Shown: positions 19,445 through 36,884 of the stretch, one piece after another
How the letters are laid out: every line of letters starts with the position of its first letter
Numbering within the stretch: position 1 is the stretch's first letter
From: a virus
Direction: 5' to 3' (one strand)
Virus record (IMG/VR): IMGVR_UViG_3300009419_000021
Span: 1 to 59,345 of that record
DNA length: 59,345 nt
The notes under the pieces: model-generated
Seen by the model: the letters and a program-made list of their open reading frames with translations, nothing else
Database searches by the model: none
What the model was told of the DNA's origin: nothing
Made by a program: the position numbers and the translations under genes

Positions 19445-19491
19445 TTAAAAACTAGACTAAACTGATAACGTAACCAACACCAACATACAAT

Positions 19492-19713
19492 ATGAAATAC
19501 ATCGTCGCTCGCATTCACAATAACTCACTAGGTAGTGTTATTGAAGTTTCTTCTCAAGAAGAAGGAAAAGACATCATTCGCGGTATGGCTGAAGAACAAT
19601 TCAATCGCCCTCTTACGGATGATGAAATTGACCACTTGGAAAACAATCTGGAAATTTACAACGAAGAAGATTCTGATAATATCTTTTGTTTCTCACTCGG
19701 CATCATCGGGTAA
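19492..19713 (+). CDS. Hypothetical protein with CA-rich leader
   Basis: 73 aa. Strand KYIVARIHNNSLGSVIEV, helix EGKDIIRGMAEEQF, TDDEIDHLENNLEIYNEED, strand IFCFSLGII. Between motif and ATG lies a leader containing CGTAACCAACACCAAC, shared with two other genes and lacking a Shine-Dalgarno sequence. Confidence 0.7.
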   Translation: MKYIVARIHNNSLGSVIEVSSQEEGKDIIRGMAEEQFNRPLTDDEIDHLENNLEIYNEEDSDNIFCFSLGIIG

Positions 19714-19764
19714 TTAAAAACTAGAATAGACTGATAACGTAACCAACACCAACTACTGACCACC

Positions 19765-20007
19765 ATGACAAACCAACAAATCATTACAAAATTCGTAAAT
19801 GGAGCAACCACTGGCAAGAACTCCAATCGCTCTCTCTTTATTGAGGGTGATACCATCTACTCATATGGGTATCACTTCCCCCTCGCTCGTCGGAATAGCG
19901 ATGGCACTTTCTGGGTAAATCCCGACAAGTATAGCGTCACCACCAGCAAGCAACAAGGCATGGTGCGCTACACAATCACCCGAAACGGGTCAAAATTTTC
20001 GGTGTAG
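19765..20007 (+). CDS. Conserved phage protein of unknown function
   Basis: 80 aa. SLFIEGDTIYSYGYHFPLARR, then VNPDKYSVTTSKQQGMVR. The pattern of a glycine-rich start, IEG-D-x-IYSY, ARR and YS-x-TTSK-x-Q marks a small family widespread in phage genomes. Full length by that pattern. It has the CA-rich leader and a strong hairpin after its stop. Confidence 0.75.
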   Translation: MTNQQIITKFVNGATTGKNSNRSLFIEGDTIYSYGYHFPLARRNSDGTFWVNPDKYSVTTSKQQGMVRYTITRNGSKFSV

Positions 20008-20018
20008 TCATGGCAAGT

Positions 20019-20057
20019 CCCCTCTCTTTCGTGGTAGGAAGAGAGGGGCAACCTTTT
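20019..20057 (+). terminator. Rho-independent terminator-like hairpin
   Basis: CCCCTCTCTT (20019-20028) pairs with AAGAGAGGGG (20039-20048), followed by CAACCTTTTT. The same CUCUC-type stem recurs at 1223, 16720 and 24204. Confidence 0.65.
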
Positions 20058-20081
20058 TAAAAACTAGACTAGAATAACACC

Positions 20082-20390
20082 ATGACGCTAGAAGAACTTA
20101 CCAAAAAACGAGATGATTTATATGTCAAAATCGCAGATGCTAAAGGCGATGAGTTGGATGGTTATTTCGATGAAGTGTGGAAAATTGAAGATCAGATCGA
20201 AGAGATCGAAAATCCCCCAATCCCCCCCTTGTCGATTGAATCTTTCGAGAGTGCATACAATGTCGAGCGAGAGTATGAACGTTTTCGGGATGAATATGGT
20301 GATGCCGCTGCACTTTATAGCGGGTATTTACGATATCATTACGACACCTATTGCTTATTCCACAAGAAAGGCACTCGGTTCAGCTTTTAA
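20082..20390 (+). CDS. Hypothetical protein with coiled-coil start
   Basis: 102 aa. Residues 1-42 are a charged helix (LTKKRDDLYVKIADAKGDEL, FDEVWKIEDQIEEIE), then PPIPPL and an aromatic C-terminal region (LYSGYLRYHYDTYCLFHKK). Not recognised. Confidence 0.65.
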   Translation: MTLEELTKKRDDLYVKIADAKGDELDGYFDEVWKIEDQIEEIENPPIPPLSIESFESAYNVEREYERFRDEYGDAAALYSGYLRYHYDTYCLFHKKGTRFSF

Positions 20391-20411
20391 AAACTAGACT
20401 AAACTGTTACC

Positions 20412-20486
20412 ATGCCTGACATCACTGACCTATCCGACAACGACATCCAAGACCTGATTGACTTCATGCAAGGTGTGACAAAATGA
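20412..20486 (+). CDS. 24-residue acidic peptide
   Basis: MPDITDLSDNDIQDLIDFMQ, then GVTK. Clear motif (TAGACTAAACTGTTACC) and start. Its end uses the repeat GTGACAAAATGACGCAC also found near 16330 and 16620. Confidence 0.5.
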   Translation: MPDITDLSDNDIQDLIDFMQGVTK

Positions 20487-20536
20487 CGCACCTGAAAAAG
20501 CAATCCATTTAAAAACTAGCTTAAACTCTTACTACC

Positions 20537-20860
20537 ATGAAAAACAATTGGAAACCAGTAATTAAATCGTTCTTCGCAATCGCTCTCAACCGTGGGTTCA
20601 CTCTCCATACAGTGGACAATGGCGGGGGAGAGGATGTTCTCATGAACAGCATCAAAGAAGCTGTGGAAGAAGTCACTGCCACAGATGAGTCTCACGTGGT
20701 TCTAAAAGACCCTACTGGCAAGCGTGTGTGGTTCTATCTGGTTCTCGGCAATGAGCCATATGAAACGATCTGCAACTATTCCGTGCATGATCTAGCAGAC
20801 AAGGTGCAAGAAGAGTTCTCAGACAAGTGGGAAGACAAACGATGCCCCCAGATCGCTTAA
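20537..20860 (+). CDS. Conserved hypothetical protein
   Basis: 107 aa. WKPVIKSFFAIALNRGFTLHTVDNGGGED, a helix, HVVLKDPTGKRVWFYLVLGNEPYETICNY, and a helix (VHDLADKVQEEFSDKW). The pattern resembles a family known from phage genomes, with no assigned role. Confidence 0.7.
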   Translation: MKNNWKPVIKSFFAIALNRGFTLHTVDNGGGEDVLMNSIKEAVEEVTATDESHVVLKDPTGKRVWFYLVLGNEPYETICNYSVHDLADKVQEEFSDKWEDKRCPQIA

Positions 20861-20884
20861 AAACTAGACTAAAATCTTACTACC

Positions 20885-21088
20885 ATGACAGAACACACAC
20901 AAGCAGTTGACAAAGCAATGGCTAAGTATCCAAAGGCAAAACGCATCGCGGTGGAGAACTTCACCTTTGGGCAACAAGGGAAGGGGATGCCTTTCGGGGT
21001 CGCCATGAATCTGGATGCGGATGCCCGTTGCTATGGGTGGAAGCCCGACACCGTGAAAGCCATCAAGATGGTCTTGAATGGTCGATAA
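20885..21088 (+). CDS. Small protein related to gene 4484-4696
   Basis: 67 aa. FGVAMNLDADARCYGWKPDT then VKAIKMVL matches the NL-x2-DA-x2-YGW-x3-TV-x-AI pattern of the 70-aa product of 4484-4696. A shared small domain is likely. Function unknown. Confidence 0.7.
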   Translation: MTEHTQAVDKAMAKYPKAKRIAVENFTFGQQGKGMPFGVAMNLDADARCYGWKPDTVKAIKMVLNGR

Positions 21089-21112
21089 AAACTAGACTAA
21101 ACTGATTGCACC

Positions 21113-21277
21113 ATGACAAACCAATCACGCTACTCAATCCAAGTCACCTATCCAAGTGGAGTAATTGCCTACATGTCCTTTCGTGGACGAACGGAATGGT
21201 GCTATTCACAAGCCCGTCACCATCTGAAAACTTGGGTACATGTTCACGGGATCACCCCAAAGATTGTTAAAAACTAG
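21113..21277 (+). CDS. 54-residue basic protein
   Basis: SRYSIQVTYPSGVIAYMSFR, then GRTEWCYSQARHHLKTWVHV. A three-strand plus helix layout. Ends KIVKN from motif bases. Not recognised. Confidence 0.6.
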   Translation: MTNQSRYSIQVTYPSGVIAYMSFRGRTEWCYSQARHHLKTWVHVHGITPKIVKN

Positions 21278-21294
21278 AATAAACTGTTACTACC

Positions 21295-21582
21295 ATGACC
21301 ACTAAAAAAGAAATCAAATTAAAAGACGGTTCAACGCTCGCCAAAGGCTTGCCAGTATCATTCATCGCTGGCAAGGATAGCCGTTGCCTAGTGCATTCTC
21401 CCGCTCATCCTGAGCCATTGCAAGTGCGCATCACAAGCGCATTCAAAGCACCTTCCATGGCTTCTCTGGAACGCTGGGGAATGGATGGCGTGTGCAAGAC
21501 TCCCACGGGTAAGCGTGTCGAGCCTGATGGATATGGCAGCGATGGTAGCCCATCATGGCTGCTGGTTTTCGGACTCATCTAA
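21295..21582 (+). CDS. Conserved hypothetical beta protein
   Basis: 95 aa. IKLKDGSTLAKGLPVSFIAG, CLVHSPAHPEPLQVRITSAF, SMASLERWGMDGVC. A small beta barrel with a GKRVEPDGYGSDGSPSWLL end, similar to unassigned phage and plasmid proteins. Confidence 0.7.
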   Translation: MTTKKEIKLKDGSTLAKGLPVSFIAGKDSRCLVHSPAHPEPLQVRITSAFKAPSMASLERWGMDGVCKTPTGKRVEPDGYGSDGSPSWLLVFGLI

Positions 21583-21630
21583 AAACTAGGGGGGAGCGCA
21601 TCCCACACGCTCATTTAAAAACTAGAGTAA
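21583..21630 (+). repeat. G6 element with GAGCG hairpin, copy 1
   Basis: AAAAACTAGGGGGGAGCGCA continues into TCCCACACGCTCATTT and then a normal motif. GAGCG (21594-21598) can pair with CGCTC (21608-21612). It is a motif head whose -10 has been replaced by G-runs. A nearly identical copy is at 23594-23639. Confidence 0.6.
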
Positions 21631-21642
21631 GCTGTTACTACC

Positions 21643-21807
21643 ATGAAATACAACGTAACTAACATTCAATGGGATACTGATGGTATCCCTAACAAATCCC
21701 TTCCGACAAGCATCACCATTGAAGTGGAAGATGAAGATGATGTGATAGATGATCTTTCCGATGAATATGGCTTCTGCATATTCTCTGCTGACATTGAAGA
21801 AGCGTAA
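21643..21807 (+). CDS. 54-residue acidic protein
   Basis: MKYNVTNIQWDTDGIPNKSL, SITIEVEDEDDVIDDLSDEY, GFCIFSADIEEA. Beta sheet with an acidic loop. Not recognised. Confidence 0.6.
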   Translation: MKYNVTNIQWDTDGIPNKSLPTSITIEVEDEDDVIDDLSDEYGFCIFSADIEEA

Positions 21808-21835
21808 TTAAAAACTAGACTAGACTGTTACTACC

Positions 21836-22108
21836 ATGACAACCACACTTATTACTGGCAATACATATCCCGTCAAAGACCAAATCAAAGCTCTGGGAGG
21901 GCGATGGAACTCAGTCCGCAAAGGCTGGGAAGTCCCCTCAGATAACGCTGGGGAAGCGCAAGCACTGGTCGATGGCGCACCACGCTCCAGCCGTAGCAGT
22001 GGCAACCGCTACGTGTCATACGAAGTCCGCACCAGCGGTGGCACGTTCTATCGCAATTACAACGGACGTTGCGAGGATGCACCGTGCTGCGGATGCTGCA
22101 CCTTTTAA
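21836..22108 (+). CDS. DUF5710-like small protein with a cysteine tail
   Basis: 90 aa. ITGNTYPVKDQIKALGGRWN, then RKGWEVPSDNAGEAQAL recalls the K-x2-A-K-x-LGG-RW-N / W-x-VP pattern of DUF5710-type domains. The C-terminal CEDAPCCGCCTF holds five cysteines and may bind zinc. Function unknown. Confidence 0.65.
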   Translation: MTTTLITGNTYPVKDQIKALGGRWNSVRKGWEVPSDNAGEAQALVDGAPRSSRSSGNRYVSYEVRTSGGTFYRNYNGRCEDAPCCGCCTF

Positions 22109-22132
22109 AAACTAGACTAGACTGATCGTGTT

Positions 22133-22342
22133 ATGAAAATTCACCTCGTTAAAAAAAGACATTGCTGGTTGGAATATCCACTTTTTGCTTTACAAGGTCT
22201 TTTCACTATTTTAGATGGTTTGATTATGTTGTTCTCTATGGGTTTTTTAATTTCCTCGTTTGCTCTCACTATCTGCAAAGTAAGAACTGAATTTCATTTC
22301 AAGCGACTGAAAAAGGAAAGGAAATTCCTTTCAAAACATTGA
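22133..22342 (+). CDS. Small membrane protein
   Basis: 69 aa. A basic N-terminus, then a long hydrophobic stretch (EYPLFALQGLFTILDGLIML and FSMGFLISSFALTI), then a basic tail (HFKRLKKERKFLSKH). One long or two short membrane segments. AT-rich compared with its neighbours, and followed by about 50 non-coding bases. Confidence 0.65.
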   Translation: MKIHLVKKRHCWLEYPLFALQGLFTILDGLIMLFSMGFLISSFALTICKVRTEFHFKRLKKERKFLSKH

Positions 22343-22396
22343 ACTGCGACTGATACACACTGCTGCACCTTTTAAAAACTAGAATAGACTGATACC

Positions 22397-22540
22397 ATGA
22401 CCACTAACACTTTATTCACTGTGGGCGGGATGGTTCTCGCCTACGCAGTCACGCGAGACGCTGCCATTGCGATCTGCACCTTCGCTCGTCGCCCCGTTCG
22501 CTGGGGCGATGAATTGATCGGGGGAGAATACGCCATTTAA
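22397..22540 (+). CDS. 47-residue membrane-associated protein
   Basis: TLFTVGGMVLAYAVTRDAAI, AICTFARRPVRWGDELIGGEYAI. One likely membrane segment followed by a basic turn. Not recognised. Confidence 0.6.
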   Translation: MTTNTLFTVGGMVLAYAVTRDAAIAICTFARRPVRWGDELIGGEYAI

Positions 22541-25056: not shown

Positions 25057-25911
25057 TCACATAATGGACATTGTTCTCATATGCTTACCAATCATGACAT
25101 TGAACATTTCATCTAGAGCATATTTGAATTGATTAATATATTCCCTAGCTTCGTCTTCATCTTCCAATCGATAATTACGTGCTGTCGATTTACCCCATGC
25201 TTGTTTGTTACTGTCTTGTAGAATTTTTGGGGGATCATTGAAGTCCAATTCTCCATCATGTAGTAACCAATAGGCAAATGCTTCGTGATAGAATTCTGCG
25301 GGTCTTACGAGCTTACCCATTCTTGCGCTACGGAACTTACCGATCTTTTGGAAGAAGTCTCTTACATAATAATCAGATGAATAGCGTAAATCTCTGGAAT
25401 TACTTGTGTTTATATTATAAGCTTGTTCAAAAAGATTTTTGAGGATGTTTGATATGTTTCTATTAATATAATTTAAATCATTATTCCTTCTAAATGTCGC
25501 TGCAAAGCTATGACCGATTCTATGAGCGATTGTCCATGGTGTCAGAGGGACTTTTTCTGCTGCTGCGTTATTGGTGAAGAATACTGTGATTTGGTCGTTC
25601 TGTGGTTCGGGGAAATCTTTACCTACTTCCAGACCCAAATGTTCTTTTACAAATTCGGGAGTCACTAGACCTTTTTCTGCTTCTTTCCATGCATTGGGTA
25701 ACTTTACGAAATATAAATTAAAATCCCAATTACCAATTCGATTGAAAGTATTTTCCAATTTCTTCAGACCAGCAGGAGATGACAAAATACCAATGGATGC
25801 TTTGTCATAACCGTGTCTGTTCTTTCTGTCCTCCCACTTACCAATCTTTTGGAGATTGGTCAGAGCCATTTCTTGGTAGATTTGTTGTAGGGAGATTTCG
25901 TCTCTATTCAT
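25057..25911 (-). CDS. Hypothetical protein with a degenerate metallopeptidase-like motif
   Basis: 284 aa. Residues about 130-140 (PWTIAHRIGHSFAAT) show an H-x3-H arrangement in a helix like the HExxH of zinc peptidases, but without the catalytic glutamate. A later FYHEAFAYWLLHDGE could hold a third ligand. Similar large unassigned proteins occur in other T4-like phages. Start follows TTAAATAATAGA, a late-type box. Confidence 0.6.
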   Translation of the reverse strand: MNRDEISLQQIYQEMALTNLQKIGKWEDRKNRHGYDKASIGILSSPAGLKKLENTFNRIGNWDFNLYFVKLPNAWKEAEKGLVTPEFVKEHLGLEVGKDFPEPQNDQITVFFTNNAAAEKVPLTPWTIAHRIGHSFAATFRRNNDLNYINRNISNILKNLFEQAYNINTSNSRDLRYSSDYYVRDFFQKIGKFRSARMGKLVRPAEFYHEAFAYWLLHDGELDFNDPPKILQDSNKQAWGKSTARNYRLEDEDEAREYINQFKYALDEMFNVMIGKHMRTMSIM

Positions 25912-25950
25912 TCTATTATTTAATCAATAGACCATTCATCTTCTTTCATT

Positions 25951-27054
25951 TTAAGGGAATAGCTGTTCTTGGTGGAAAAAATAATAAAGCCCAACCTGTG
26001 AAATAGTCAAAATGATGAATGCTGCAATGACCCATCCCGTAGGAATCAGGAAATCTGTGTCTTTATACATTGTCCATTCATGGGATTGGAAGTCTTTGCG
26101 AACAATCGCTTTCAATTCTTTTAGGATATCATCGTTTACGGGATTTGTTAAGAACAGGGTTTGGATATTTTGTTTCACCAATTCACTCTTCGACCAACCA
26201 AAGACATAGCACCAATCAGCGGAAGCGTTTTTAGTTCCTCCATGACAGATCACCAGATCATTCTTTTTACCGTTTTGCCAGTGAGCCTGAATATATTTTG
26301 CTTTTTCAATACTATCTGTCTTTACTAGAATGAGGTTGACATGTTTCTGCGGTCCGAGCGCACTGTTCATTTTGTCCCAATTCCAGATATCAATGGCAGT
26401 GTCACCAATGATTCTTGATGAACTGAATGTGGCATTGTCGGGATAATTTGGTAGTCCCATTTTTTGAGCCTCTTCTTTGGAGATCTTTTGATAATTGTGT
26501 AGTGTTTTACTATTTTTCAGAGGGTTCATCCATGTTCTGATTTCCGTCACAGGGTAATCACAAAATTCAGGATCATCATTCACATAAGAAATATAATCGT
26601 TTCTATCACCGCTATCATAATCAGGACGATAACCCTTTTCCACGGAGATTCCGTGCTTTTTAGAAATCTGATCAAAGAACCAAGGCTCGATATCATACCT
26701 ACCCAAAGTCGTTTCCACCCACCATTTGGGGTAATGTGTCTCCCGTTTTGTTTCAGGGACTGTGTATGATGTGGTGTTGCCTTTGCTGTCAGTAGAATAA
26801 TGTGTTACCAATTCTATCCACTCTGCTTCCCACTTGGGAATATGAACTGCTTTTTCAACCTTTCCTGAATGAGTCTCTGTATCTCTTTGATTGGAACACT
26901 TTGACAAACCCAAGACCATCGAAATTGTCACCAGAGCAGCGGCGATTCCCACACCGCTTTCTCTGATATCAATCGTATGGAATTTAATCCATGCGAAAAC
27001 CCCCGCCGCAACGGGGATAATCATCAATAAGAATAACCAATATCCGAATGTCAT
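25951..27054 (-). CDS. Membrane protein coupled to the LemA-like gene
   Basis: 367 aa. Two N-terminal membrane segments (FGYWLFLLMIIPVAAGVFAW, and IAAALVTISMVLGLS), a large soluble domain of about 270 residues, and a C-terminal membrane segment (WVIAAFIILTISQVGLYYFF). Its ATG overlaps the stop of the LemA-like gene (TAATG), so the two are translated together. The central domain was not recognised. Confidence 0.7.
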   Translation of the reverse strand: MTFGYWLFLLMIIPVAAGVFAWIKFHTIDIRESGVGIAAALVTISMVLGLSKCSNQRDTETHSGKVEKAVHIPKWEAEWIELVTHYSTDSKGNTTSYTVPETKRETHYPKWWVETTLGRYDIEPWFFDQISKKHGISVEKGYRPDYDSGDRNDYISYVNDDPEFCDYPVTEIRTWMNPLKNSKTLHNYQKISKEEAQKMGLPNYPDNATFSSSRIIGDTAIDIWNWDKMNSALGPQKHVNLILVKTDSIEKAKYIQAHWQNGKKNDLVICHGGTKNASADWCYVFGWSKSELVKQNIQTLFLTNPVNDDILKELKAIVRKDFQSHEWTMYKDTDFLIPTGWVIAAFIILTISQVGLYYFFHQEQLFP

Positions 27055-27614
27055 TACTTGATCCAGTTGGAGTTATCTTCCCCTGTTTGGAAATTCTCTT
27101 TGGTTTCCGCACTTGTCACGATCACGACTTGGATTTCCTGTTTACCAAACATCTTGAGAATGATGCCTGATGGGAATTGAGTGATCATATCGTCTCCTTG
27201 TCTTTTGATTTCCAAAAGACGGGTTTGAGAGAATTGCCAATCCTTACGACCAGCCACAATGATATTCTGTAGATTAGTCAAAGTCTTGACTTCCGTAATC
27301 GTCGGAACCGCTTCTTGAACCATACCCACAGTCACCAATTGACCTTCTCCTGCTGTGTTACCCCCTCTTGCCTTAGCGTAACCAGTAATAATATTCGTCA
27401 GAGCTTCCACTTCCTTATCGGATACAGATGCTGCTTCTCGAATCGCCTTTCGTGTATTATCCAACACGTTCTTATTATCTTCCTGTGTAGCTTTCGCCAA
27501 ATTCTCCAATTTCGTGTAGCCATTGAAGCTACCGATAGCGGAGAACAAGAAGATAAGACCAAGGAAGACAACGCTTCCACCTACGACCAATGATGTAATT
27601 AATGTTTTATTCAT
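27054..27614 (-). CDS. LemA family protein
   Basis: 186 aa. An N-terminal membrane anchor (SLVVGGSVVFLGLIFLFSAI), then FNGYTKLENLAKATQEDNKNVL and a four-helix region (ETLTNLQN-like segments, REDWQFSQTRLLEIK), as in LemA proteins. The usual YN-x-LV dipeptide order is altered. The protein should sit in the inner membrane with the helical domain outside. It is driven by an early-type motif on the minus strand. Confidence 0.7.
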   Translation of the reverse strand: MNKTLITSLVVGGSVVFLGLIFLFSAIGSFNGYTKLENLAKATQEDNKNVLDNTRKAIREAASVSDKEVEALTNIITGYAKARGGNTAGEGQLVTVGMVQEAVPTITEVKTLTNLQNIIVAGRKDWQFSQTRLLEIKRQGDDMITQFPSGIILKMFGKQEIQVVIVTSAETKENFQTGEDNSNWIK

Positions 27615-27645
27615 TTCGCAAGTATCTTACCCTAGTTTTTTATTT
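27615..27645 (-). promoter_or_regulatory. Early-type motif on the minus strand
   Basis: Read on the minus strand: AAAAACTAGGGTAAGATACT, then TGCGAA before the LemA-like ATG. Apart from a gene-less reversed motif near 24833, it is the only copy of the array element seen to the left and the only one driving a gene there, so the LemA pair probably belongs to the early genes. Confidence 0.6.
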
Positions 27646-27695
27646 TGTCAATAGGGTTGACAAATCAGAATCTTGTGGTTAAATACTTACTCAAT

Positions 27696-27767
27696 TGCGG
27701 GGTAGAGCAGTGGTAGCTCGTCTGGCTCATAACCAGAAGGTCGTCAGTTCAATCCTGACCCCCGCTA
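27696..27767 (+). tRNA. Initiator-like tRNA-fMet(CAT)
   Basis: Acceptor TGCGGGG with CCCCGCT leaves T1:T72 unpaired, the mark of bacterial initiator tRNA (C1:A72 in E. coli). D arm GAGC-AGTGGTA-GCTC, anticodon arm TCTGG-CTCATAA-CCAGA, variable AGGTC and T arm GTCAG-TTCAATC-CTGAC closely follow bacterial tRNA-fMet. The anticodon stem has two G-C pairs instead of three. CCA is not encoded. Confidence 0.85.
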
Positions 27768-27773
27768 CAGAAA

Positions 27774-27844
27774 GCGTCTTTGATGTAATGGTAACATGCC
27801 TTCCTTCCAAGTAGGTTACGTGGGTTCGAGTCCCACAAGACGCT
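27774..27844 (+). tRNA. tRNA-Gly(TCC)
   Basis: Acceptor GCGTCTT/AAGACGC, anticodon loop CTTCCAA (TCC), T arm GTGGG-TTCGAGT-CCCAC, discriminator T. The anticodon stem has one mismatch. CCA is not encoded (CAT follows). Confidence 0.85.
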
Positions 27845-27899
27845 CATTTAATAAAAAAACTTGAAAAAGTTGAACTAAATGCTAAATACTAATAACAAC

Positions 27900-27962
27900 A
27901 TGAAATACGAACAATATAATCAAGAGAAGGCAGCGACACCGAATAGGTGGCGGCGTGAATGA
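27900..27962 (+). CDS. Possible 20-residue peptide
   Basis: MKYEQYNQEKAATPNRWRRE. It starts after CTAAATACTAATAACAAC, which resembles the late box with extra spacing, and is followed 30 bases later by a perfect terminator. It could be a real peptide or the 5' part of a small RNA. Confidence 0.35.
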   Translation: MKYEQYNQEKAATPNRWRRE

Positions 27963-27992
27963 TTATGTTTTAAATACATATTGGATTTCGCG

Positions 27993-28018
27993 CCTCATCT
28001 GAAAAGATGAGGTTTTTT
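27993..28018 (+). terminator. Intrinsic terminator with GAAA tetraloop
   Basis: CCTCATCT-GAAA-AGATGAGG-TTTTTT: perfect 8-bp stem, GNRA loop and T6 run. It ends whatever transcript covers 27900-27990. Confidence 0.85.
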
Positions 28019-28094
28019 ATTTTAGAGGTGAACGAAGCAACCTGAATGGCTAGAGAGTGGTGAAAGACTAATAGAAAATGAAATATATTTTAAT

Positions 28095-28167
28095 TCCCAA
28101 GTAGCTCAGTTGGTAGAGCGCGTGACTGTTAATCACGTTGTCGTAGGTTCGATCCCTACCTTGGGAG
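28095..28167 (+). tRNA. tRNA-Asn(GTT)
   Basis: Acceptor TCCCAAG/CTTGGGA, D arm GCTC-AGTTGGTA-GAGC, anticodon loop CTGTTAA (GTT), T arm GTAGG-TTCGATC-CCTAC, discriminator G. CCA not encoded. Confidence 0.95.
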
Positions 28168-28172
28168 CAGAA

Positions 28173-28248
28173 GGGTGTGTAGCTCAGTTGGTAGAGCAAG
28201 AAGCTTTTAACTTCGTGGTCATAGGTTCAAATCCTGTCACACCCACCA
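28173..28248 (+). tRNA. tRNA-Lys(TTT)
   Basis: Acceptor GGGTGTG/CACACCC, D arm GCTC/GAGC, anticodon loop CTTTTAA (TTT), T loop TTCAAAT, discriminator A with encoded CCA. Confidence 0.95.
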
Positions 28249-28249
28249 T

Positions 28250-28324
28250 GCTTCTATCGTCTAATGGTTAGGACAGGTGGTTTTCATCCACCAAATAAGG
28301 GTTCGATTCCCTTTAGAAGTGCCA
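28250..28324 (+). tRNA. tRNA-Glu(TTC)
   Basis: Acceptor GCTTCTA/TAGAAGT, anticodon arm GGTGG-TTTTCAT-CCACC (TTC), T loop TTCGATT, discriminator G with encoded CCA. One base after tRNA-Lys. Confidence 0.95.
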
Positions 28325-28326
28325 AT

Positions 28327-28397
28327 GCCTCCATAGTTCAATGGTAGAACCCCCGATTTGTAATCGGGAGATACAGATTCGAATTCTGTTGGAGGCT
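28327..28397 (+). tRNA. tRNA-Thr(TGT)
   Basis: Acceptor GCCTCCA/TGGAGGC, anticodon arm CCCGA-TTTGTAA-TCGGG (TGT), T loop TTCGAAT, discriminator T, CCA not encoded. Confidence 0.95.
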
Positions 28398-28415
28398 CTT
28401 GACAAAATAATTTTT

Positions 28416-28958
28416 ATGATAAGATTGGGCATGAAGAAAACAAATTTGATATTATTACATGCATATGAGATTGGATATAGATGTGATGAACAGGGGAACG
28501 TTAGTTCAAAAAAAGGAATCATAAATCCTTATATCAATAGTAATGGATACTTATCTTTTTCAGTGAAAGTGAGTCCACCAATCCATCACAAATTGGCATC
28601 TAAAGCTGTGCCTGTTCACAGACTACAAGCATATCAAAAACATGGTGATGAAATTTTCGGTGAAAACATTCATGTGAGACATCTGAATGGGAATCCTCTA
28701 GACAATTCATACGATAATATTTTAATTGGTAGTGTATCAGAAAATTCTTTGGACAGACCAAAACATTCAAGAATAAAAAACGCTATCAATGCATCCAATA
28801 AAATTAGAAGATTCACAGATTCTGAGATATTGGAAATCAAAAAATTTCATAAAGAAAACAAATCAACGTATAAAGAAACGATGAGTAAATTTAATATTAG
28901 CAGTAAAGGATCATTACATTACATATTGAATACTGAATACGTAACAAACAAAGGGTAG
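28416..28958 (+). CDS. HNH homing endonuclease
   Basis: 180 aa from ATG 28416 (28431 is the alternative); earlier starts would lie inside tRNA-Thr. The HNH core is HRLQAYQKHGDEIFGENIHV, then RHLNGNPLDNSYDNILIGS, with H, N and N-x3-DN-x3-NL in the expected order. The C-terminal part (SEILEIKKFHKENKSTYKETMSKFNIS) looks like a DNA-binding HTH. The stop codon lies inside the next tRNA gene. A mobile element of the tRNA cluster, by analogy with other phages. Confidence 0.8.
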   Translation: MIRLGMKKTNLILLHAYEIGYRCDEQGNVSSKKGIINPYINSNGYLSFSVKVSPPIHHKLASKAVPVHRLQAYQKHGDEIFGENIHVRHLNGNPLDNSYDNILIGSVSENSLDRPKHSRIKNAINASNKIRRFTDSEILEIKKFHKENKSTYKETMSKFNISSKGSLHYILNTEYVTNKG

Positions 28959-29037
28959 GTAAAGCCAGTGGCTCTGGCAGTCAGACTGTAAATCTGATCT
29001 CTTCTGAGGGGTGGATCGATACCACACCTGCCCACCA
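28953..29037 (+). tRNA. tRNA-Tyr(GTA)
   Basis: Acceptor GGGTAGG/CCTGCCC, anticodon arm TCAGA-CTGTAAA-TCTGA (GTA), long variable arm, T loop ATCGATA-like (variant), discriminator A and encoded CCA. Its first six bases are also the last codons of the HNH gene. Confidence 0.9.
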
Positions 29038-29040
29038 TAT

Positions 29041-29116
29041 CGGGAGTTGATGTAACTTGGTAGCATGAGGCATTTGGATTGCTTTCGTCAGAGTTCAAAT
29101 CTCTGGCTCCCGACCA
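29041..29116 (+). tRNA. tRNA-Pro(TGG)
   Basis: Acceptor CGGGAGT/GCTCCCG, anticodon loop TTTGGAT (TGG), T loop TTCAAAT, discriminator A with encoded CCA. The C1:G72 pair is usual for bacterial tRNA-Pro. Confidence 0.9.
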
Positions 29117-29125
29117 TTTTTCAAA

Positions 29126-29198
29126 GGGTCATTAGCTCAATTGGTAGAGCGGCTGTTTTGCAAACAGCGGGTTGTGGGTTCGAGTCCCACATGTATCC
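29126..29198 (+). tRNA. tRNA-Ala(TGC) with a damaged acceptor stem
   Basis: D arm GCTC/GAGC, anticodon arm GCTGT-TTTGCAA-ACAGC (TGC) and T arm GTGGG-TTCGAGT-CCCAC are intact. The acceptor GGGTCAT against ATGTATC has mismatches at G3:A70 and T4:T69, so the G3-U70 alanine identity pair is missing. CCA not encoded. Possibly decaying or edited. Confidence 0.8.
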
Positions 29199-29208
29199 AC
29201 ATTTTAAT

Positions 29209-29282
29209 TGGGCGTTAGTGTAATGGTAGCACCGCAGATTTTGATTCTGTTAGTAGAGGTTCGAGTCCTCTACGCCCTACCA
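29209..29282 (+). tRNA. tRNA-Gln(TTG)
   Basis: Acceptor TGGGCGT/ACGCCCT with an open T1:T72 end (glutaminyl-tRNA usually has a weak 1-72 pair), anticodon loop TTTTGAT (TTG), T loop TTCGAGT, discriminator A with encoded CCA. Confidence 0.9.
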
Positions 29283-29308
29283 CAATAACTCCAATTTCTC
29301 AAGTCAAT

Positions 29309-29323
29309 AGATTAAATAATATT
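29309..29323 (+). promoter_or_regulatory. Late-type box abutting an ATG (type example)
   Basis: GATTAAATAATATT runs straight into ATG 29324. The same box (TAAATAATA plus 2-4 bases) precedes the starts at 9690, 25911, 31295, 34786, 36473, 38581, 38630, 44321, 44849, 45402, 47911, 48401, 49075, 57888, 57917 and 58222. It resembles the T4 late -10 TATAAATA. Confidence 0.65.
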
Positions 29324-29698
29324 ATGATAACATTTTCAAAATTTTTCGAATTGTTTTTAGAAAATTACAATGAAGTTCGAATATATAATAGTATGGTTCG
29401 TCTCCCTATGGATAAACCTTATGGCTTTTGGATGGATAAGCACGGTAATTTCGCAGTCGTTAAAGGTGGAATGGGATCACATGAAAAAATTGGTAAATTG
29501 ATTTTGGATCAACTTGATATAGATTCAGGGGGGAGTGTATATGAAACATTATTCGAAAATGGTTGGGTTCGTGTCATGTTAGACAGGAATAAAACATATT
29601 ATGAAAAATCTCACATGAGATCATTAACTCCTATTCAAAAACGTAATTTATCTTTTATTAACGAATTCTACGAATTAAAAGGAGTGGAAGAAGGTTAA
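29324..29698 (+). CDS. Putative internal head protein with capsid-targeting-like N-terminus
   Basis: 124 aa. The N-terminus MITFSKFFELFLE resembles the T4 capsid-targeting sequence MKTYQEFIAE. The rest (MDKPYGFWMDKHGNFAVVKG, GWVRVMLDRNKTYYE) is not recognised. Late-type box directly upstream. Packaging into the head and cleavage by the gp21-like protease are inferred. Confidence 0.55.
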   Translation: MITFSKFFELFLENYNEVRIYNSMVRLPMDKPYGFWMDKHGNFAVVKGGMGSHEKIGKLILDQLDIDSGGSVYETLFENGWVRVMLDRNKTYYEKSHMRSLTPIQKRNLSFINEFYELKGVEEG

Positions 29699-29705
29699 TA
29701 TTTTT

Positions 29706-30179
29706 ATGAGAACATTCTTAGAATCCTTTTATGATATCCAAGAGCTATCTCCGAATAGTAAGCTACAGGATATCTTGAATACTCACTATCTCAAAGTCTA
29801 TCGTTCATCGGCTCGTCCCAATAAGAGTGATTATACTTCAGGTTCTCATGCAGGAACTAAACAACAAGCTCTAATTCGTGCCGATTATATGATCAATGAT
29901 GAAGGGAAATACGACAAGTATTATCTTTATGAATTGACGATTCGAATTGATAAAGTGTATCCCAAGTTACTATCTGATGATGGAACAGATCATGGATATG
30001 ATTATGTAAAAGATTTAGGTGATTATGATATTGCTTTCTATAAAAATACAGGAGAAGGTGATATCAGAAACGAAAATCTTTCCATTATCATCATCAATCC
30101 TGATAGCGTGGTTGAATCTAAAATGGTCGAAGAGATCGATGGAGAGTATTTAACAGCAATGCAAGACGAATTATATTAA
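29706..30179 (+). CDS. Putative ADP-ribosyltransferase-fold protein with capsid-targeting-like N-terminus
   Basis: 157 aa. N-terminus MRTFLESFYDIQEL is like a head-targeting sequence. Then LKVYRSSARPNKSDYTSGSH, AGTKQQALIRADYM, YLYELTIRIDKVYPKL and a final strand resemble the opening R, the H-x-GT and the beta strands of ADP-ribosyltransferases. T4 packages such an enzyme (Alt) in its head. The catalytic glutamate is not certain, so the enzyme call is weak. Confidence 0.45.
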   Translation: MRTFLESFYDIQELSPNSKLQDILNTHYLKVYRSSARPNKSDYTSGSHAGTKQQALIRADYMINDEGKYDKYYLYELTIRIDKVYPKLLSDDGTDHGYDYVKDLGDYDIAFYKNTGEGDIRNENLSIIIINPDSVVESKMVEEIDGEYLTAMQDELY

Positions 30180-31295
30180 TTATTTAAATTTTATTCTGGA
30201 TTTAGCTTCTTTATCACCCAACTCATAACCCATTTTAGGAAGTGCTAAGTGTTCTTTACCAATTTCATAACCACCATAAGGATCGACACCATCTTTACTA
30301 ACGCTTCTTAAATGTTCCGCATACTCTTTATCTTTGTTGGTCGCATTTGTATATGTCGGCATCATAACGCTTCTACCGTCAACTAAAACAAATCTTATTC
30401 TCTTACCTTTAAAAATAGCTTTGGCTGCTGCTAATTGCACCCAATCATCCCATAGTCTTTGAGACGCATCTGTTTTAGTAAACTCGCCAATTTCTTTAAT
30501 AAAATTAATATAATCTTTCAATATCTGTTCGCCTTTTGGTGTTAAAATATCAGTTTTAACTTTCTTTATATTTCTGAAACCAGGGGATTCTACTTGTTTT
30601 CCACTTTTATTAGTTATAGATAATGGGAATCCATAAACATCTGCGTTGATATTATCAATACATCCTATTTTTCCTGCCAATAGTTGAACTGAGAATCCAG
30701 CTTTAATGGTGGCAGCACCTTGAAAATATCTATTTAAAAATCTATACAATTCAAATTCATCATTGATGAGTCCTTCGCCATATATTTTTTTGTATAAAAA
30801 TTCTCTATTTCTCCATAAAGCTCTGATATGATTAGCTGCTCCTCTATAAAACCAAGCTTTTACTGGTTCTTTTTTACCATCTAATCCAACTATAAATTCA
30901 ATATCTTTTTCAGAAGCATCTGTAGCTTTCACATAAGCAGCATAAACAGGGTATAAATTTCTAAATCTCGGCCAACTTGAACCTATCGTCCCAACAACAA
31001 GTCCCAAAACATAAAACATGTTTTCTGGACTCTCACTTGCAAATTTTTTAATACCAGGAATTATATTACAAAATGAAGAATCCGCCAACATTAAATCTGA
31101 TTGATTAATTGTTATAGTGTCTTCTTCACTTTTATCAGTGTTTTTTTTATTGATTGGTATAACAACATCAACACCCGCGACTTTAGTAACCATGTGATTC
31201 GGGTTTTTTTCAGCAGCGACAGCAGGGTCAAATGCTTCTAAAACAATTTTATATTTTTTATTTCTTTTTTCGAAGAATTGACTAAAATTTATCAT
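30180..31295 (-). CDS. Putative internal head protein
   Basis: 371 aa. Opens MINFSQFFEKRNKKYKIVLE, the pattern M-x2-F-x2-FF-E found in several neighbours. The remainder (WFYRGAANHIRALWRNREFL, RFLNRYFQGAATIKAGFSVQLLAGKIG) is helical and not recognised. Late-type box (TTAAATAATGAT) before the ATG. Converges on the gene ending at 30179 with no gap. Confidence 0.6.
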   Translation of the reverse strand: MINFSQFFEKRNKKYKIVLEAFDPAVAAEKNPNHMVTKVAGVDVVIPINKKNTDKSEEDTITINQSDLMLADSSFCNIIPGIKKFASESPENMFYVLGLVVGTIGSSWPRFRNLYPVYAAYVKATDASEKDIEFIVGLDGKKEPVKAWFYRGAANHIRALWRNREFLYKKIYGEGLINDEFELYRFLNRYFQGAATIKAGFSVQLLAGKIGCIDNINADVYGFPLSITNKSGKQVESPGFRNIKKVKTDILTPKGEQILKDYINFIKEIGEFTKTDASQRLWDDWVQLAAAKAIFKGKRIRFVLVDGRSVMMPTYTNATNKDKEYAEHLRSVSKDGVDPYGGYEIGKEHLALPKMGYELGDKEAKSRIKFK

Positions 31296-31326
31296 ATCAT
31301 TATTTAACCTTTTATTAAATATTCAC
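31296..31326. promoter_or_regulatory. Divergent late-type boxes
   Basis: In 31 bases the minus strand has TTAAATAATGAT before ATG 31295 and the plus strand has TTAAATATTCAC before ATG 31327. Neither gene has room for a leader longer than a few bases. Confidence 0.55.
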
Positions 31327-32847
31327 ATGGAAAAATTTCATAAATTATATCGTCAACTCATGCGCGAGTATGTGGAAGACTTCGATCAGAAATGGGATAA
31401 AGCTGTTTCCGAATCGGAGGAGCTTCAGGTAGCTCTTGATTTGATGAAAAATATCAAAGCAAAATTAAAAGGTGAAATTTATATCGTCGGTGGTGTTCCT
31501 CGTGATTTGCTCATGGGTAACGCAATTGATGATGTGGATTTGGCTACCAATATTCCTGTAGAACAATTGGAGAAACATTTTGAATTGAGAAATATTTCTA
31601 AGAACGATTCTCAACCAGTCTATGCTATCCTATGGAAAGGATATGTTTATGATTTGGCAAAATTTAGAACTGATTCTGGTGATATTGGTAGGCAAGCGAA
31701 TGTCTCAACTGAGACTGATTCCTTTCAAGCTGATACAGAACGCAGAGATTTAACAATCAATTCTTTCGGGTTGGATGAGAATGGTAAGATCGTAGATTAT
31801 CAAGGTGGTCTGGATGATTTGAAAAACAAAATCGTTCGTGCTGTAGGTGATGCCAAGAAGAGATTCATGGAAGATGCTACAAGGATTCTTCGCGTTTTCC
31901 GATTCGCTGCCAAGATGGATTTTGAAATTGAAGACGATACTAAAAAAGCAGCAATCGAATTGAAATATTTGCTTCAAGATCCGAAAGCTATTTCCAAAGA
32001 AAGTATCTCGAAAGAATTTTATAAGTCTGCCAAGACTGGTAGAACTCTTGCCAACTTCTTGAAAAAATTACAAGACACCAAAATTCTCCATGACATTCTT
32101 CCTGAATTTACAGAGATGGAAGGTTTCGATCACGATCCTCAACATCACCCTGAAGGAGATTCTCAAGTATTGGGACACATCTATGAGTGTCTGAATGCTT
32201 CTCCCTACAAAGATCCTATTATTAATCTTGCTGTATTATTCCATGACTTTGGGAAAGCTACGACTAGAGGGAAAAAAGATAATGGATTTAGTAGCTATCA
32301 TGGTCACGAAGCTGCTGGTGTTCCCATTGTCGAAGGGATATTTGAGAGACTAAGATTCAATGAATTGTCTCAACAAGATAAAAAGAATATCTTAGCGGCA
32401 GTGGATAAACACATGCTCGTTCATAATCTAGACAAACTCAATATTAAAACACTGACTAGACTGATCCAAAATCCTGCATGGGAAACCATCAAAGCAGTTG
32501 GTTATTGCGATGAAGCATCGAGAGGCTCTGGTCTTTTCAATGAAAAAGAATTTTGGGATAAAGTTAAAAGAGCAGAAGAAAAAGTATCCAACATCGGTGG
32601 ATCGGAAGATGAAACAAGAAAACGTCTCAAGCAATATTTCAGTGGAAATAAATTGATGGAATGGTTTCCAGTTCTCATCAAAGACAAATCCAAGTTCAAA
32701 GATATTACAGCAGCACTGCAAGAATATACTCTTGAAGAGTTGAATGCTGGTAGGGAACCAGATGATTCGGAAATGAAGACAATCGTTGCTGGTATTCTAA
32801 AGAAGAATCAATTTAATGAATGGTATAATTATTACCAGAAAAATTAA
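31327..32847 (+). CDS. CCA-adding enzyme / poly(A) polymerase family protein with HD domain
   Basis: 506 aa. Class II nucleotidyltransferase signature: YIVGGVPRDLLMGNAIDDVDLAT at about residues 55-77 (GG-x2-RD and D-x-D), then ERRDLTINSFGL, then RFMEDATRILRVFRFAAKM. An HD domain follows (HPEGD, AVLFHDFGKATTR, SYHGHEAAG), as in E. coli-type tRNA nucleotidyltransferases. It could add or repair the CCA ends of the phage tRNAs, half of which lack encoded CCA. The N-terminus MEKFHKLYRQLMREYVEDFD is target-sequence-like. Confidence 0.85.
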   Translation: MEKFHKLYRQLMREYVEDFDQKWDKAVSESEELQVALDLMKNIKAKLKGEIYIVGGVPRDLLMGNAIDDVDLATNIPVEQLEKHFELRNISKNDSQPVYAILWKGYVYDLAKFRTDSGDIGRQANVSTETDSFQADTERRDLTINSFGLDENGKIVDYQGGLDDLKNKIVRAVGDAKKRFMEDATRILRVFRFAAKMDFEIEDDTKKAAIELKYLLQDPKAISKESISKEFYKSAKTGRTLANFLKKLQDTKILHDILPEFTEMEGFDHDPQHHPEGDSQVLGHIYECLNASPYKDPIINLAVLFHDFGKATTRGKKDNGFSSYHGHEAAGVPIVEGIFERLRFNELSQQDKKNILAAVDKHMLVHNLDKLNIKTLTRLIQNPAWETIKAVGYCDEASRGSGLFNEKEFWDKVKRAEEKVSNIGGSEDETRKRLKQYFSGNKLMEWFPVLIKDKSKFKDITAALQEYTLEELNAGREPDDSEMKTIVAGILKKNQFNEWYNYYQKN

Positions 32848-33068
32848 TCTTTGTGCCATTTCTCCATCTTGGAGTAATATTCTGGATCTTCTTCCACATG
32901 TTGTTTAGCAATCGTTTTTGCTAACTTCTTTCCTAACTTTGTTTTTCTCTTAGAAGGATTGATATGCTCTTGTTCTACTTCTTCCCCTTTGGAAACCTCT
33001 GGTTTAGGGAGATCTTTTTTCTTAACTTTTTTGAAGTAGTCATTAAAGAAATCTTGGAATTTTTTCAT
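32844..33068 (-). CDS. Small lysine-rich protein
   Basis: 74 aa, about a third lysine. MKKFQDFFNDYFKKVKK fits the head-targeting-like pattern. The rest (SKRKTKLGKKLAKTIAKQHV) is very basic, as in T4 internal proteins. Last gene of a leftward run from 34786. TAATAAT before the ATG. Confidence 0.6.
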   Translation of the reverse strand: MKKFQDFFNDYFKKVKKKDLPKPEVSKGEEVEQEHINPSKRKTKLGKKLAKTIAKQHVEEDPEYYSKMEKWHKD

Positions 33069-33072
33069 ATTA

Positions 33073-33891
33073 TTAGTGTTCAGTGTTCTCGCTTAATTTT
33101 TTACGATATCCATATTCAGCAACAGATGGGTATCCACCTGTAACGTGTTTAACTTCTAATGGATCAACTCCTCTAAATTCCCACACCACTTTTTTCTCAA
33201 ATGGTGTCATGTTGAATCCAGTATGCGCTCTCATTAGAATATCAACAATCTCATCATGTGACAATTCTGGATAGATTCTACTCTTCAATTCTTTAATTTC
33301 ACCAGAAGAAGAATCTCTATAGGTGTCTCCATCATAATTAAATTTGGAAGAATCGGAAGCAACCCAAAAAAGATCAGTTGCTTTAAAACATTTTTTTAAT
33401 TCTTGGATATATTCAGGGGTGATATCTTTTTCTCTACACCAGAAAGCAATGACTGAGACATTTTTTTTAAGTGTTTCACTTTCAATACTTTTCCAGATTC
33501 TCCCTGATTGACTTTTTATTCTCGTTTCTCCCATCGCTTGAGAACGTTGGTTCTGATTGTAGAAATCTAAATCAGACTTATTCATTTTGCCACACACTTT
33601 AACATCATAAGACTTCAACACATTTTTAGTATTATCAGGATATTGAAGTGCTTCTTTCAACCCATTGAAAATGAATAAGTGAGTTGCTCCAGTGTGTAGG
33701 ATAACATTTCCAATTTTAGAAAAGGCATAACCATCGGAATGATCATAAACACCACCGTCAAATTTCAAAGAATCGGGATTGGATTTGTTCGATGGAATTG
33801 TGACATTTTCAAATAATACAACACCTCTGGTAGCTGCACGTTCCTCCAGAATTTTATTATAAAGTTCTCTGATGTTTAATTCGTCTCTCAT
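33073..33891 (-). CDS. Hypothetical protein
   Basis: 272 aa from ATG 33891, which overlaps the upstream stop as ATGA. It includes DGGVYDHSDGYAFSKIGNVILHTG, VSVIAFWCREKDITPEYIQELKKC and a C-terminal GGYPSVAEYGYRKKL. Not recognised. Part of a coupled run of four genes. Confidence 0.65.
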   Translation of the reverse strand: MRDELNIRELYNKILEERAATRGVVLFENVTIPSNKSNPDSLKFDGGVYDHSDGYAFSKIGNVILHTGATHLFIFNGLKEALQYPDNTKNVLKSYDVKVCGKMNKSDLDFYNQNQRSQAMGETRIKSQSGRIWKSIESETLKKNVSVIAFWCREKDITPEYIQELKKCFKATDLFWVASDSSKFNYDGDTYRDSSSGEIKELKSRIYPELSHDEIVDILMRAHTGFNMTPFEKKVVWEFRGVDPLEVKHVTGGYPSVAEYGYRKKLSENTEH

Positions 33892-34175
33892 GTCAACCAA
33901 ATTTCTTCTGTTTGTTTAAATTTATCTATCAATAATTCCAAATTTTTAGATTGAAAATTACAATCAATCATGGTCTTTACAGTGTGCCTATTGTTGTTAT
34001 TACAGAATGATAATTTGTAATTCAAATCAGCCATTTTAGGCTCGTGTTCAACGATCATCAGGAATGTATCATACATTCCTGATGGAAGGGGAATTGGATC
34101 GCCTGTAAAAATAACTTCCACTCCATCACTATTTGGAGCATTACTCATATATTCTTTAGGATAAATTACTATCAT
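33888..34175 (-). CDS. Hypothetical protein
   Basis: 95 aa. IVIYPKEYMSNAPNSDGVEV, SGMYDTFLMIVEHEPKMAD, LELLIDKFKQTEEIWLT. Coupled at both ends by ATGA overlaps. Not recognised. Confidence 0.65.
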   Translation of the reverse strand: MIVIYPKEYMSNAPNSDGVEVIFTGDPIPLPSGMYDTFLMIVEHEPKMADLNYKLSFCNNNNRHTVKTMIDCNFQSKNLELLIDKFKQTEEIWLT

Positions 34176-34786
34176 CGTGCTAATTTCATGTAAACAACCA
34201 CTGTTTCAGCATTTCGGTCAATGTTGCCATCGTCGTCAAGAGAATAGGAAATACCATTGAACACTGGATAAGGCATTGTATCATCGTTTTTATCTTTGTC
34301 AATAACAAAACCATTTCGACTGTAGAGTCTGAATAATTTTTTTGGTATGATATTGCCATCACCATCTTGTTCCGCAAAACAATCCAAACGTCTAGCACCA
34401 TTTTTAATAGCACTTTTTACTGCCGCATCTCCCGAAGATTCTATGCCAGAAAAAACCGAAACCAATTCATCACCCTTTTTGATGCAATATCCGCTGGTAT
34501 TGTTTGGTCCGATAAAACATTTCATCTCTGCGTATTCTTCGGGATCATAAATGGTGATGTTATTTTTAATATCTTTAAACCATTCATGTTCTTTATGTTC
34601 GGGGTCAGCACGTTTAGTATCCGATTCCATGTAAGCATTGATGATTTTATAAAATGATCTCCAATCAACTTTTTTAAATTTTTCAGAATCTTCAGGTGTT
34701 AGTTTTCTACTGATTTTTAATTGTTCAGGAGATAATTTACCAATGTCTGAGAATGCTTCCCAGAAAAAATTATAGAATGTCTTCAT
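34172..34786 (-). CDS. GNAT-like acetyltransferase with capsid-targeting-like N-terminus
   Basis: 204 aa. N-terminus MKTFYNFFWEAFSDIGKLS is the closest match in the window to T4 MKTYQEFIAEA. The body has GYCIKKGDELVSVFSG, then a helix after SGDAAVKSAIKNGARRLDCFA and LFRLYSRNGFV, in the order of a GNAT fold, but the Q/R-x2-G-x-G/A signature is weak. First gene of a leftward run; late-type box TTAAATAATAAA. Confidence 0.55.
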   Translation of the reverse strand: MKTFYNFFWEAFSDIGKLSPEQLKISRKLTPEDSEKFKKVDWRSFYKIINAYMESDTKRADPEHKEHEWFKDIKNNITIYDPEEYAEMKCFIGPNNTSGYCIKKGDELVSVFSGIESSGDAAVKSAIKNGARRLDCFAEQDGDGNIIPKKLFRLYSRNGFVIDKDKNDDTMPYPVFNGISYSLDDDGNIDRNAETVVVYMKLAR

Positions 34787-34807
34787 TTTATTATTTAATA
34801 AAAATTT

Positions 34808-35086
34808 TCAACTATCTAGGTATTTGTCAATCACCATGGTGAAATAATCCGCAAACCAACAAATAGATGATGCGTAAAATCCCCAAAGAGGGATTAGGAA
34901 AGGTGTGCCTGACCAGAACATCCCGAAGAAACATCCTACCCAAAAACCGAGACACATGCAACACTTAAATAATTTTTCAAAGAAATCATTTTTAGATAAA
35001 TGCTCACGAATAGGATTTAGAATTGATCCGTATTTCAGGATCAGACAAGCACCAATTAATACAAAAGATTGAAACCAAAGACTCAT
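34808..35086 (-). CDS. DUF1360-like membrane protein
   Basis: 92 aa. Membrane segments FQSFVLIGACLILKYGSI, CMCLGFWVGCFFGMFW and FLIPLWGFYASSICWFADYF. The CCMCLGFWVG motif is the C-x2-C-x-GFW of DUF1360 proteins. Its ATG overlaps the upstream stop. Confidence 0.7.
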   Translation of the reverse strand: MSLWFQSFVLIGACLILKYGSILNPIREHLSKNDFFEKLFKCCMCLGFWVGCFFGMFWSGTPFLIPLWGFYASSICWFADYFTMVIDKYLDS

Positions 35087-35283
35087 CCTAGAATAAGTTT
35101 TTGGTCATCAATCGTTTTCACACCATCTGAAATCAGGAGTGCTTCTTCTTTTCTCACGATAATTTTGTTTCCAAAATCATCTGTGATTTCTACCATGCCG
35201 TCTGTAAGTTCAGTTACTACTGGGCAACCTTGCTTTTGTTTGCAGCACAACTTAACACTATTATTTGTTAATACTTTAATCAT
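35083..35283 (-). CDS. Small beta-rich protein
   Basis: 66 aa. IKVLTNNSVKLCCKQKQGCPVVTELTDGMVEITDDFGNKIIVRKEEALLISD. An SH3-like arrangement of strands. Forms a coupled pair with the DUF1360-like gene. GATAAATAATTTTGTT before the ATG. Confidence 0.65.
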   Translation of the reverse strand: MIKVLTNNSVKLCCKQKQGCPVVTELTDGMVEITDDFGNKIIVRKEEALLISDGVKTIDDQKLILG

Positions 35284-35361
35284 AACAAAATTATTTATCC
35301 AAAGATTTGAGAAATCAATGATTTTTTATCTTTCAAATTATAAACAAATACTTTTTTCATA

Positions 35362-36042
35362 TTAATAGCCCCATGCTTTCAGAGTATGTTCGAATGGATT
35401 ACCGTCGATGTTTTTCACAAGCTGTAGCATTTCGTCAGCAATATCGCGAATTTCTTTTTGAGCATGTTCGCTGCGACGAAGCTTGATGAAGTTGGCGAAA
35501 GAACGCATGTTGAACATAACGTCTCCTTCAATTTGACTGTTGTAAGTCTTGAAGAAACGAGCGGATTCTTTTGCGCGTTTGCGTCCAAGAACAGGCTCAA
35601 GGTCTTTTAGACAAGAATGATAGAGCTTATTACCTAATTCCGTATACCCTTCGAGAATTTGCTTCCACGTTTCATAACCACCAATAAATTCTTCAACATC
35701 TTTAGGTTGAGATAGAGACGCATTGATACCAATCCAGTCATCAGGAAGATAAAATTTATCTTCTTTTAGTTCTTTGTATCGAGCGGACTCAGCATTGATG
35801 GATGCAATACGATGTTTAAGCAAATGAATGTGACTAGCGATTTCCGTATCAACTAGGAAGTGAACCACTCCCTTTTCAAACGGTGTCTCATGACCATTGT
35901 TCCATAGCATGTCAATTAGTTTTGGGATTCGAGATTTCTTATCCTCTGTCAAATCGCGACTCGTAGATGTCCATGCACTGCAAGCAATAATTTCGTCGCT
36001 TCCATAATGCCCTAGTAAGGTTACTTTATTTTTATTATTCAT
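35362..36042 (-). CDS. thyX: Flavin-dependent thymidylate synthase
   Basis: 226 aa. The ThyX signature R-H-R-x3-S-x-N-x2-S-x-RY appears as KHRIASINAESARYKEL at about residues 77-93. The upstream TPFEKGVVHFLVDTEIASHIHLLKHR and the late RRSEHAQKEIRDIADEM also fit. It makes dTMP from dUMP with FAD and methylenetetrahydrofolate. It pairs functionally with the ribonucleotide reductase 3-6 kb away. Full length. Confidence 0.95.
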   Translation of the reverse strand: MNNKNKVTLLGHYGSDEIIACSAWTSTSRDLTEDKKSRIPKLIDMLWNNGHETPFEKGVVHFLVDTEIASHIHLLKHRIASINAESARYKELKEDKFYLPDDWIGINASLSQPKDVEEFIGGYETWKQILEGYTELGNKLYHSCLKDLEPVLGRKRAKESARFFKTYNSQIEGDVMFNMRSFANFIKLRRSEHAQKEIRDIADEMLQLVKNIDGNPFEHTLKAWGY

Positions 36043-36045
36043 ATT

Positions 36046-36880: not shown

Positions 36881-36884
36881 TAAT

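Follow-up and report, generated by a model that had tools for sequence, protein, structure and literature searches.

The stretch of DNA analysed here, hereafter the window, is a 59,345-base IMG/VR virus record from an uncultured T4-like phage, the major head protein of which is approximately 32% identical to cyanophage gp23. The window also encodes a ribonucleotide reductase and a CCA-adding tRNA nucleotidyltransferase, and it carries ten tRNA genes according to ARAGORN and eleven according to Rfam. The gene at 27696-27767 is the first of a tRNA array, and is followed by tRNA genes for Gly, Asn, Lys, Glu and Thr and then by those for Pro, Ala and Gln. The features of the array, its surroundings and the second CAU tRNA are as follows:

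27657..27685, plus strand: promoter of the tRNA array (TTGACA, 17 nt, TAAATA), the sole match to this pattern in the window, with 0.03 expected
27686..27695, plus strand: spacer, and the very short 5' leader predicted for the tRNA precursor, with a conserved ACTCAAT
27696..27767, plus strand: initiator-type tRNA(CAU), ending at discriminator A73 (ARAGORN, Rfam, features, trained models)
27774..27845, plus strand: tRNA-Gly(UCC), in second place in the array (ARAGORN) and likewise in relatives
28095..28398, plus strand: tRNA-Asn(GUU), tRNA-Lys(UUU), tRNA-Glu(UUC) and tRNA-Thr(UGU) (ARAGORN, Rfam)
28341..28958, plus strand: HNH endonuclease ORF within the tRNA array (PF13392, phrog_59), the true start of which is probably near 28432
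29041..29282, plus strand: tRNA-Pro(UGG), tRNA-Ala(UGC) and tRNA-Gln(UUG) (ARAGORN, Rfam)
31327..32847, plus strand: CCA-adding tRNA nucleotidyltransferase (phrog_2244, E 1.4e-61; PF01743, E 5e-25), which probably matures the tRNAs that lack an encoded CCA
9784..9856, plus strand: second tRNA(CAU), of elongator type (G1:U72, C11:G24, U31:A39), scored against both trained models

Two other stretches of the window resemble tRNAs. At 8677-8768, a 35-bit Rfam match that ARAGORN missed has the anticodon loop CUUCUAA, and was read as a tRNA-Arg(UCU) whose variable region is long. At 28954-29037, adjoining the HNH endonuclease ORF, a weak tRNA-like match occupies the place where relatives have tRNA-Tyr(GUA); it may be a tRNA-Tyr that was disrupted when that ORF inserted.

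The initial annotation had described the 27696-27767 gene as an initiator-type tRNA with an unpaired T:T at 1-72. The tRNA was called at 27696-27767/8 by both ARAGORN and Rfam RF00005 (64.8 bits, E 8e-12), and the mismatch was confirmed; U1xU72 leaves position 1:72 without a Watson-Crick pair. The two major marks of bacterial initiators are a 1:72 mismatch and three G:C pairs, and G2:C71, C3:G70 and A11:U24 aid formylation (2020 review, PMC7949028). All three formylation determinants are present, the acceptor stem containing G2:C71, C3:G70 and G4:C69, and the D-arm A11:U24. The anticodon arm reads UCUGG-CUCAUAA-CCAGA (anticodon CAU); G30:C40 and G31:C39 are present and 29:41 is U:A, giving two of the three G:C pairs. 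This U29:A41 pair and a D-loop of 7 nt are the departures from a textbook initiator. The discriminator is A73, and the gene lacks an encoded CCA. Among a baseline of 1111 non-CAU tRNAs from viral loci, a 1:72 mismatch was found in 16, A11:U24 in 22, and G30:C40 plus G31:C39 in 70; because these features are individually rare, finding them all in one tRNA goes far beyond chance.

U29:A41 and U1xU72 were both found in initiator tRNAs of bacterial genomes, and since bacterial initiators with U:U exist, U1xU72 was ruled out as a phage oddity. The anticodon arm was also considered as a pointer to the host, approximately three quarters of 25 genome matches being Patescibacteria; the pattern required a D-loop of 9 nt, whereas that of the phage tRNA has 7, and these matches were therefore not used.

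For structure-based classification, two covariance models of equal information content were trained as a stand-in for TFAM, one on 30 initiators from outside the clade and the other on 30 elongator-type CAU tRNAs. The 27696-27767 tRNA scored 87.4 bits with the initiator model versus 59.3 bits with the elongator model, 28 bits to the initiator side. E. coli metT/metU scored 64.2 versus 88.4 bits, a control that is not independent because one metU copy was in the elongator training set, and the window tRNA at 9784 scored 41.3 versus 53.0 bits, 12 bits to the elongator side. A separate elongator-type CAU tRNA is present not only in the window but also in the related records G001, G002 and G003. 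A reading of the 27696-27767 gene as an elongator tRNA-Met or a tRNA-Ile2 would draw on the CAU anticodon only, and the model preference, the 1:72 mismatch and A11:U24 make it exceedingly improbable. Sequence features and model scores together rule out an artefact or an elongator; with conservation in relatives they bear out the initiator type first proposed, and the existence of an initiator-type tRNA at this position is confirmed.

The promoter in front of the array combines a sigma70-like -35 with a T4-late-like -10 element. Judged from the TAAATA-N5-ATG spacing of the phage's late genes, the tRNA precursor would start at approximately 27691. The orthologous tRNAs are likewise preceded by TTGACA-N17-TAAATA, and across relatives the promoter is more conserved than the tRNA body. 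The close relatives of the neighbouring proteins lie on uncultured contigs of up to 207 kb, and the head of the array is present in ten contigs found via the CCA enzyme. In nine of these ten, the tRNA stands directly behind the same promoter; in the tenth, L015, a U1xU72 CAU tRNA stands behind a different upstream sequence. A search with the promoter edge and the first tRNA bases yielded 12 stretches, 11 of which precede the tRNA of this slot, the other (on L066) being a chance match to the promoter pattern.

The bodies of the slot tRNAs have strongly diverged, with the 1:72 mismatch retained. Across 11 distinct slot tRNAs, three irregular members of which were paired by eye, position 1 is U or C and position 72 is U or A, in the combinations U:U, C:U and C:A and never U:A, such that all 11 are mismatched; C3:G70 is present in 11/11 and G2:C71 in 10/11. 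Five gap-free clade sequences were 98% paired, with nine compensatory pairs, changed on both sides. A mismatch kept amid compensatory pairs is the pattern that selection for an initiator would leave. We also considered that the gene could be a captured host gene or a decoy without a role in initiation, as might be suggested by the degenerate appearance of the L062 ortholog and the lack of a normal T-loop in L067; however, compensatory changes and retained identity elements show that the tRNA is under selection, the promoter dedicated to it is conserved, and we regard this explanation as quite improbable.

With the two trained models (initiator/elongator bits), initiator scores were the higher for L018 (86.7/58.1), L017 (85.9/55.6), L010 (65.8/46.8), L012 (36.5/21.8), L067 (37.6/24.6) and L569 (43.8/21.0). 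L009 (36.2/33.0), L015 (66.5/63.2) and L533 (29.6/34.1) were ambiguous; together with the degenerate L062, they suggest that some members of the clade may have lost initiator function or modified it. The L012 tRNA has a long variable region, the D-arm is rebuilt in L009, L062, L067 and L533, and the abnormal T-loop of L067 is missing the usual UUC motif.

The initiator-like tRNAs with irregular D-arms (L067:7428-7507, L533:1727-1806 and L062:5383-5458) suggest a relaxed constraint on the tRNA elbow. Further features were seen in two relatives: on L533, the initiator-like tRNA is immediately followed by a phage-encoded tmRNA (1823-2189; Rfam, 78.4 bits), and on L569 two successive CAU tRNAs, both 1:72-mismatched, lie behind the same promoter (1302-1490), perhaps two initiator-type tRNAs in one phage.

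The phage's gene starts provide the setting in which the tRNA would act. The premise that its genes have leaderless starts was upheld by two recurrent arrangements, in each of which the ATG lies at a fixed distance from a promoter element:

689..22399, plus strand: early starts, AAACTA-N3-TANNNT-N6-ATG, 43 found with 0.01 expected in the window
25909..58224, both strands: late starts, TAAATA-N5-ATG, 15 of the 16 matches in the window, the remaining one being at 9688

The 16 matches to the late arrangement compare with 1.4 expected, and TAAATA is a T4-late-like -10 element. The usual distance from a -10 element to the transcript start is 6-8 nt, which would place the first nucleotide of early and late transcripts on the A of the ATG or beside it. 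Shine-Dalgarno motifs are at background in nine clade records (0.04-0.11, versus 0.01-0.08 at control positions), and both spacing peaks recur in G001, G002, G003, G008, G014, G017, G025 and G028. One other record, G016, was dropped; its match to the early motif was by chance, and it is a Shine-Dalgarno user (0.75). Reading of most phage genes from leaderless mRNAs, early and late, is strongly supported at the level of sequence. The start block is near-identical among the 43 early genes, and AAACTAG, conserved immediately before the -10, points to a promoter element dedicated to early genes.

We consider it probable that 27696-27767 is a working phage-encoded initiator tRNA, and from its sequence we infer that it would be expressed, charged, formylated and used in initiation. 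Transcription by the host RNA polymerase, or by a phage-modified form of it, would begin from TTGACA-N17-TAAATA with the initiator tRNA first in the operon, yielding a precursor whose leader is only a few nucleotides long. The 3' end would be completed by the phage CCA-adding enzyme, encoded 3.6 kb downstream, or by that of the host. The host methionyl-tRNA synthetase would charge the tRNA, and the host methionyl-tRNA formyltransferase would formylate it, a step proposed on the strength of the open 1:72 and of G2:C71, C3:G70 and A11:U24. The phage initiator tRNA would then enter the P site and initiate phage proteins at a time when the host's own supply is limiting, damaged or outcompeted. Searches of the relatives' records found no formyltransferase, deformylase, IF3 or bS21, and these must therefore come from the host.

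The advantage of such a tRNA to the phage may be a general one, without particular relevance to leaderless mRNAs: the whole array would make up for host tRNAs depleted by host shut-off, decay or tRNA-cleaving defences such as VapC, and the initiator would be just one of its members. The tRNA complement is consistent with this, as the window, G001, G002 and G003 hold ten to 20 tRNAs of many isotypes, an RNA ligase 1 family is present in four of seven records, a CCA-adding enzyme is encoded, and the initiator body diverges fast within the clade. The initiator tRNA is, moreover, a target of VapC toxins, which cleave it according to work cited in PMC10264068. Mutations of the anticodon loop have been reported for nuclease evasion (PMC10264068), whereas the CUCAUAA loop is unchanged here; the promoter-proximal place of the initiator wherever the slot was seen also counts against replacement in general. 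We judge general replacement a serious contender that falls somewhat short of probable.

Alternatively, the phage may raise fMet-tRNA and thereby make ribosomes prefer its own leaderless mRNAs over the Shine-Dalgarno-led mRNAs of its host. Such a boost is favoured by the constant promoter-to-ATG spacing of 43 early and 16 late starts, and by Shine-Dalgarno motifs at background throughout the nine clade records. A mechanism is supplied by a review, in which more fMet-tRNA brought a strong rise in leaderless and only a mild one in canonical translation (PMC9031893), and which makes a link between initiator and leaderless starts plausible. Three phage loci outside the clade (L201, L335 and L380) also combine leaderless-like starts, no Shine-Dalgarno enrichment and an initiator tRNA, but as they were collected by the initiator pattern they are not independent support. 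Against this link, two initiator-bearing phages, phiM12 and phi-Grn1, use Shine-Dalgarno sites, and among multi-tRNA viral loci a lack of such sites was seen in 10/54 with an initiator and 7/42 without, giving no association and no support for a general tie. Compared with an Asn control, Shine-Dalgarno sites were only slightly less frequent in the full U29:A41 initiator set. Furthermore, no initiator tRNA was found in the leaderless-type records G014, G017, G025 and G028 (88-154 kb), although all four are incomplete. We regard a leaderless boost as possible, if rather doubtful.

To say that the purpose of the initiator tRNA is specifically to promote the phage's leaderless mRNAs goes one step further and is less certain. 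In its fullest form, a T4-like clade with nearly all starts leaderless, early and late alike, would use a specialised, fast-evolving initiator tRNA, encoded first in the tRNA operon, to turn host ribosomes to leaderless starts, a translational takeover via initiator supply that we think unlikely. A literature search, with most subscription journals outside its scope, returned no report joining an initiator tRNA with leaderless phage genes. Were the link true, the phage would steer the ribosome's choice of mRNA class by its own initiator tRNA supply, and the effect that fMet-tRNA is reported to have on leaderless mRNAs in vitro would turn out to be exploited in nature. The clade is informative whether or not the link holds, since its initiator tRNAs form a natural series with diverged bodies and few identity elements kept, which shows the minimal needs of an initiator tRNA.

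Phage-encoded initiator tRNAs are already known, and the 27696-27767 tRNA adds another; it is the setting, a phage with predicted leaderless genes, that is unusual. Nor are such tRNAs rare in phages. Two initiator anticodon-arm patterns each gave at least 120 matches in IMG/VR, some of which may be host or prophage DNA, and blastn with the 27696-27767 tRNA matched 204 phage records, not all of them with initiators. Many viral contigs carry a lone initiator tRNA as their sole tRNA (within L099-L214 and L331-L450); some of these may be integration sites or host DNA, and others phage genes. Genes for tRNA-fMet are also found in Sinorhizobium prophages (PMC12429752), and according to an eLife study phages tended to avoid carrying tRNA-fMet in the presence of a VapC able to cut it (PMC10264068).

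Among individual phages, Caulobacter phage CcrSC (MH588547) has an annotated tRNA-fMet with the same UCUGG-CUCAUAA-CCAGA arm, adjoining another tRNA-Met; CcrSC is unrelated to the window phage and shows no fixed promoter-to-ATG spacing. In two T4-related phages, Sinorhizobium phage phiM12 and Vibrio phage phi-Grn1, a tRNA-Met scores as an initiator (80.4/67.7 and 74.4/58.4 bits, respectively), but unlike the window phage they have Shine-Dalgarno sites at 0.33 and 0.52 of ORFs. The tRNA-fMet published for the Erwinia jumbo phage pEa_SNUABM_47 (PMC7760394) has been proposed as a phage translational initiator (PMC9686651), in a role that concerns kasugamycin and not leaderless mRNAs. Compared with bacterial tRNA-fMet, the phage tRNA shares the 1:72 mismatch, G2:C71, C3:G70, A11:U24, G30:C40, G31:C39, the CUCAUAA loop and A73; it differs in having U29:A41 and U1xU72 in place of G29:C41 and C1xA72, a D-loop of 7 nt, no encoded CCA, and a place in a phage array.
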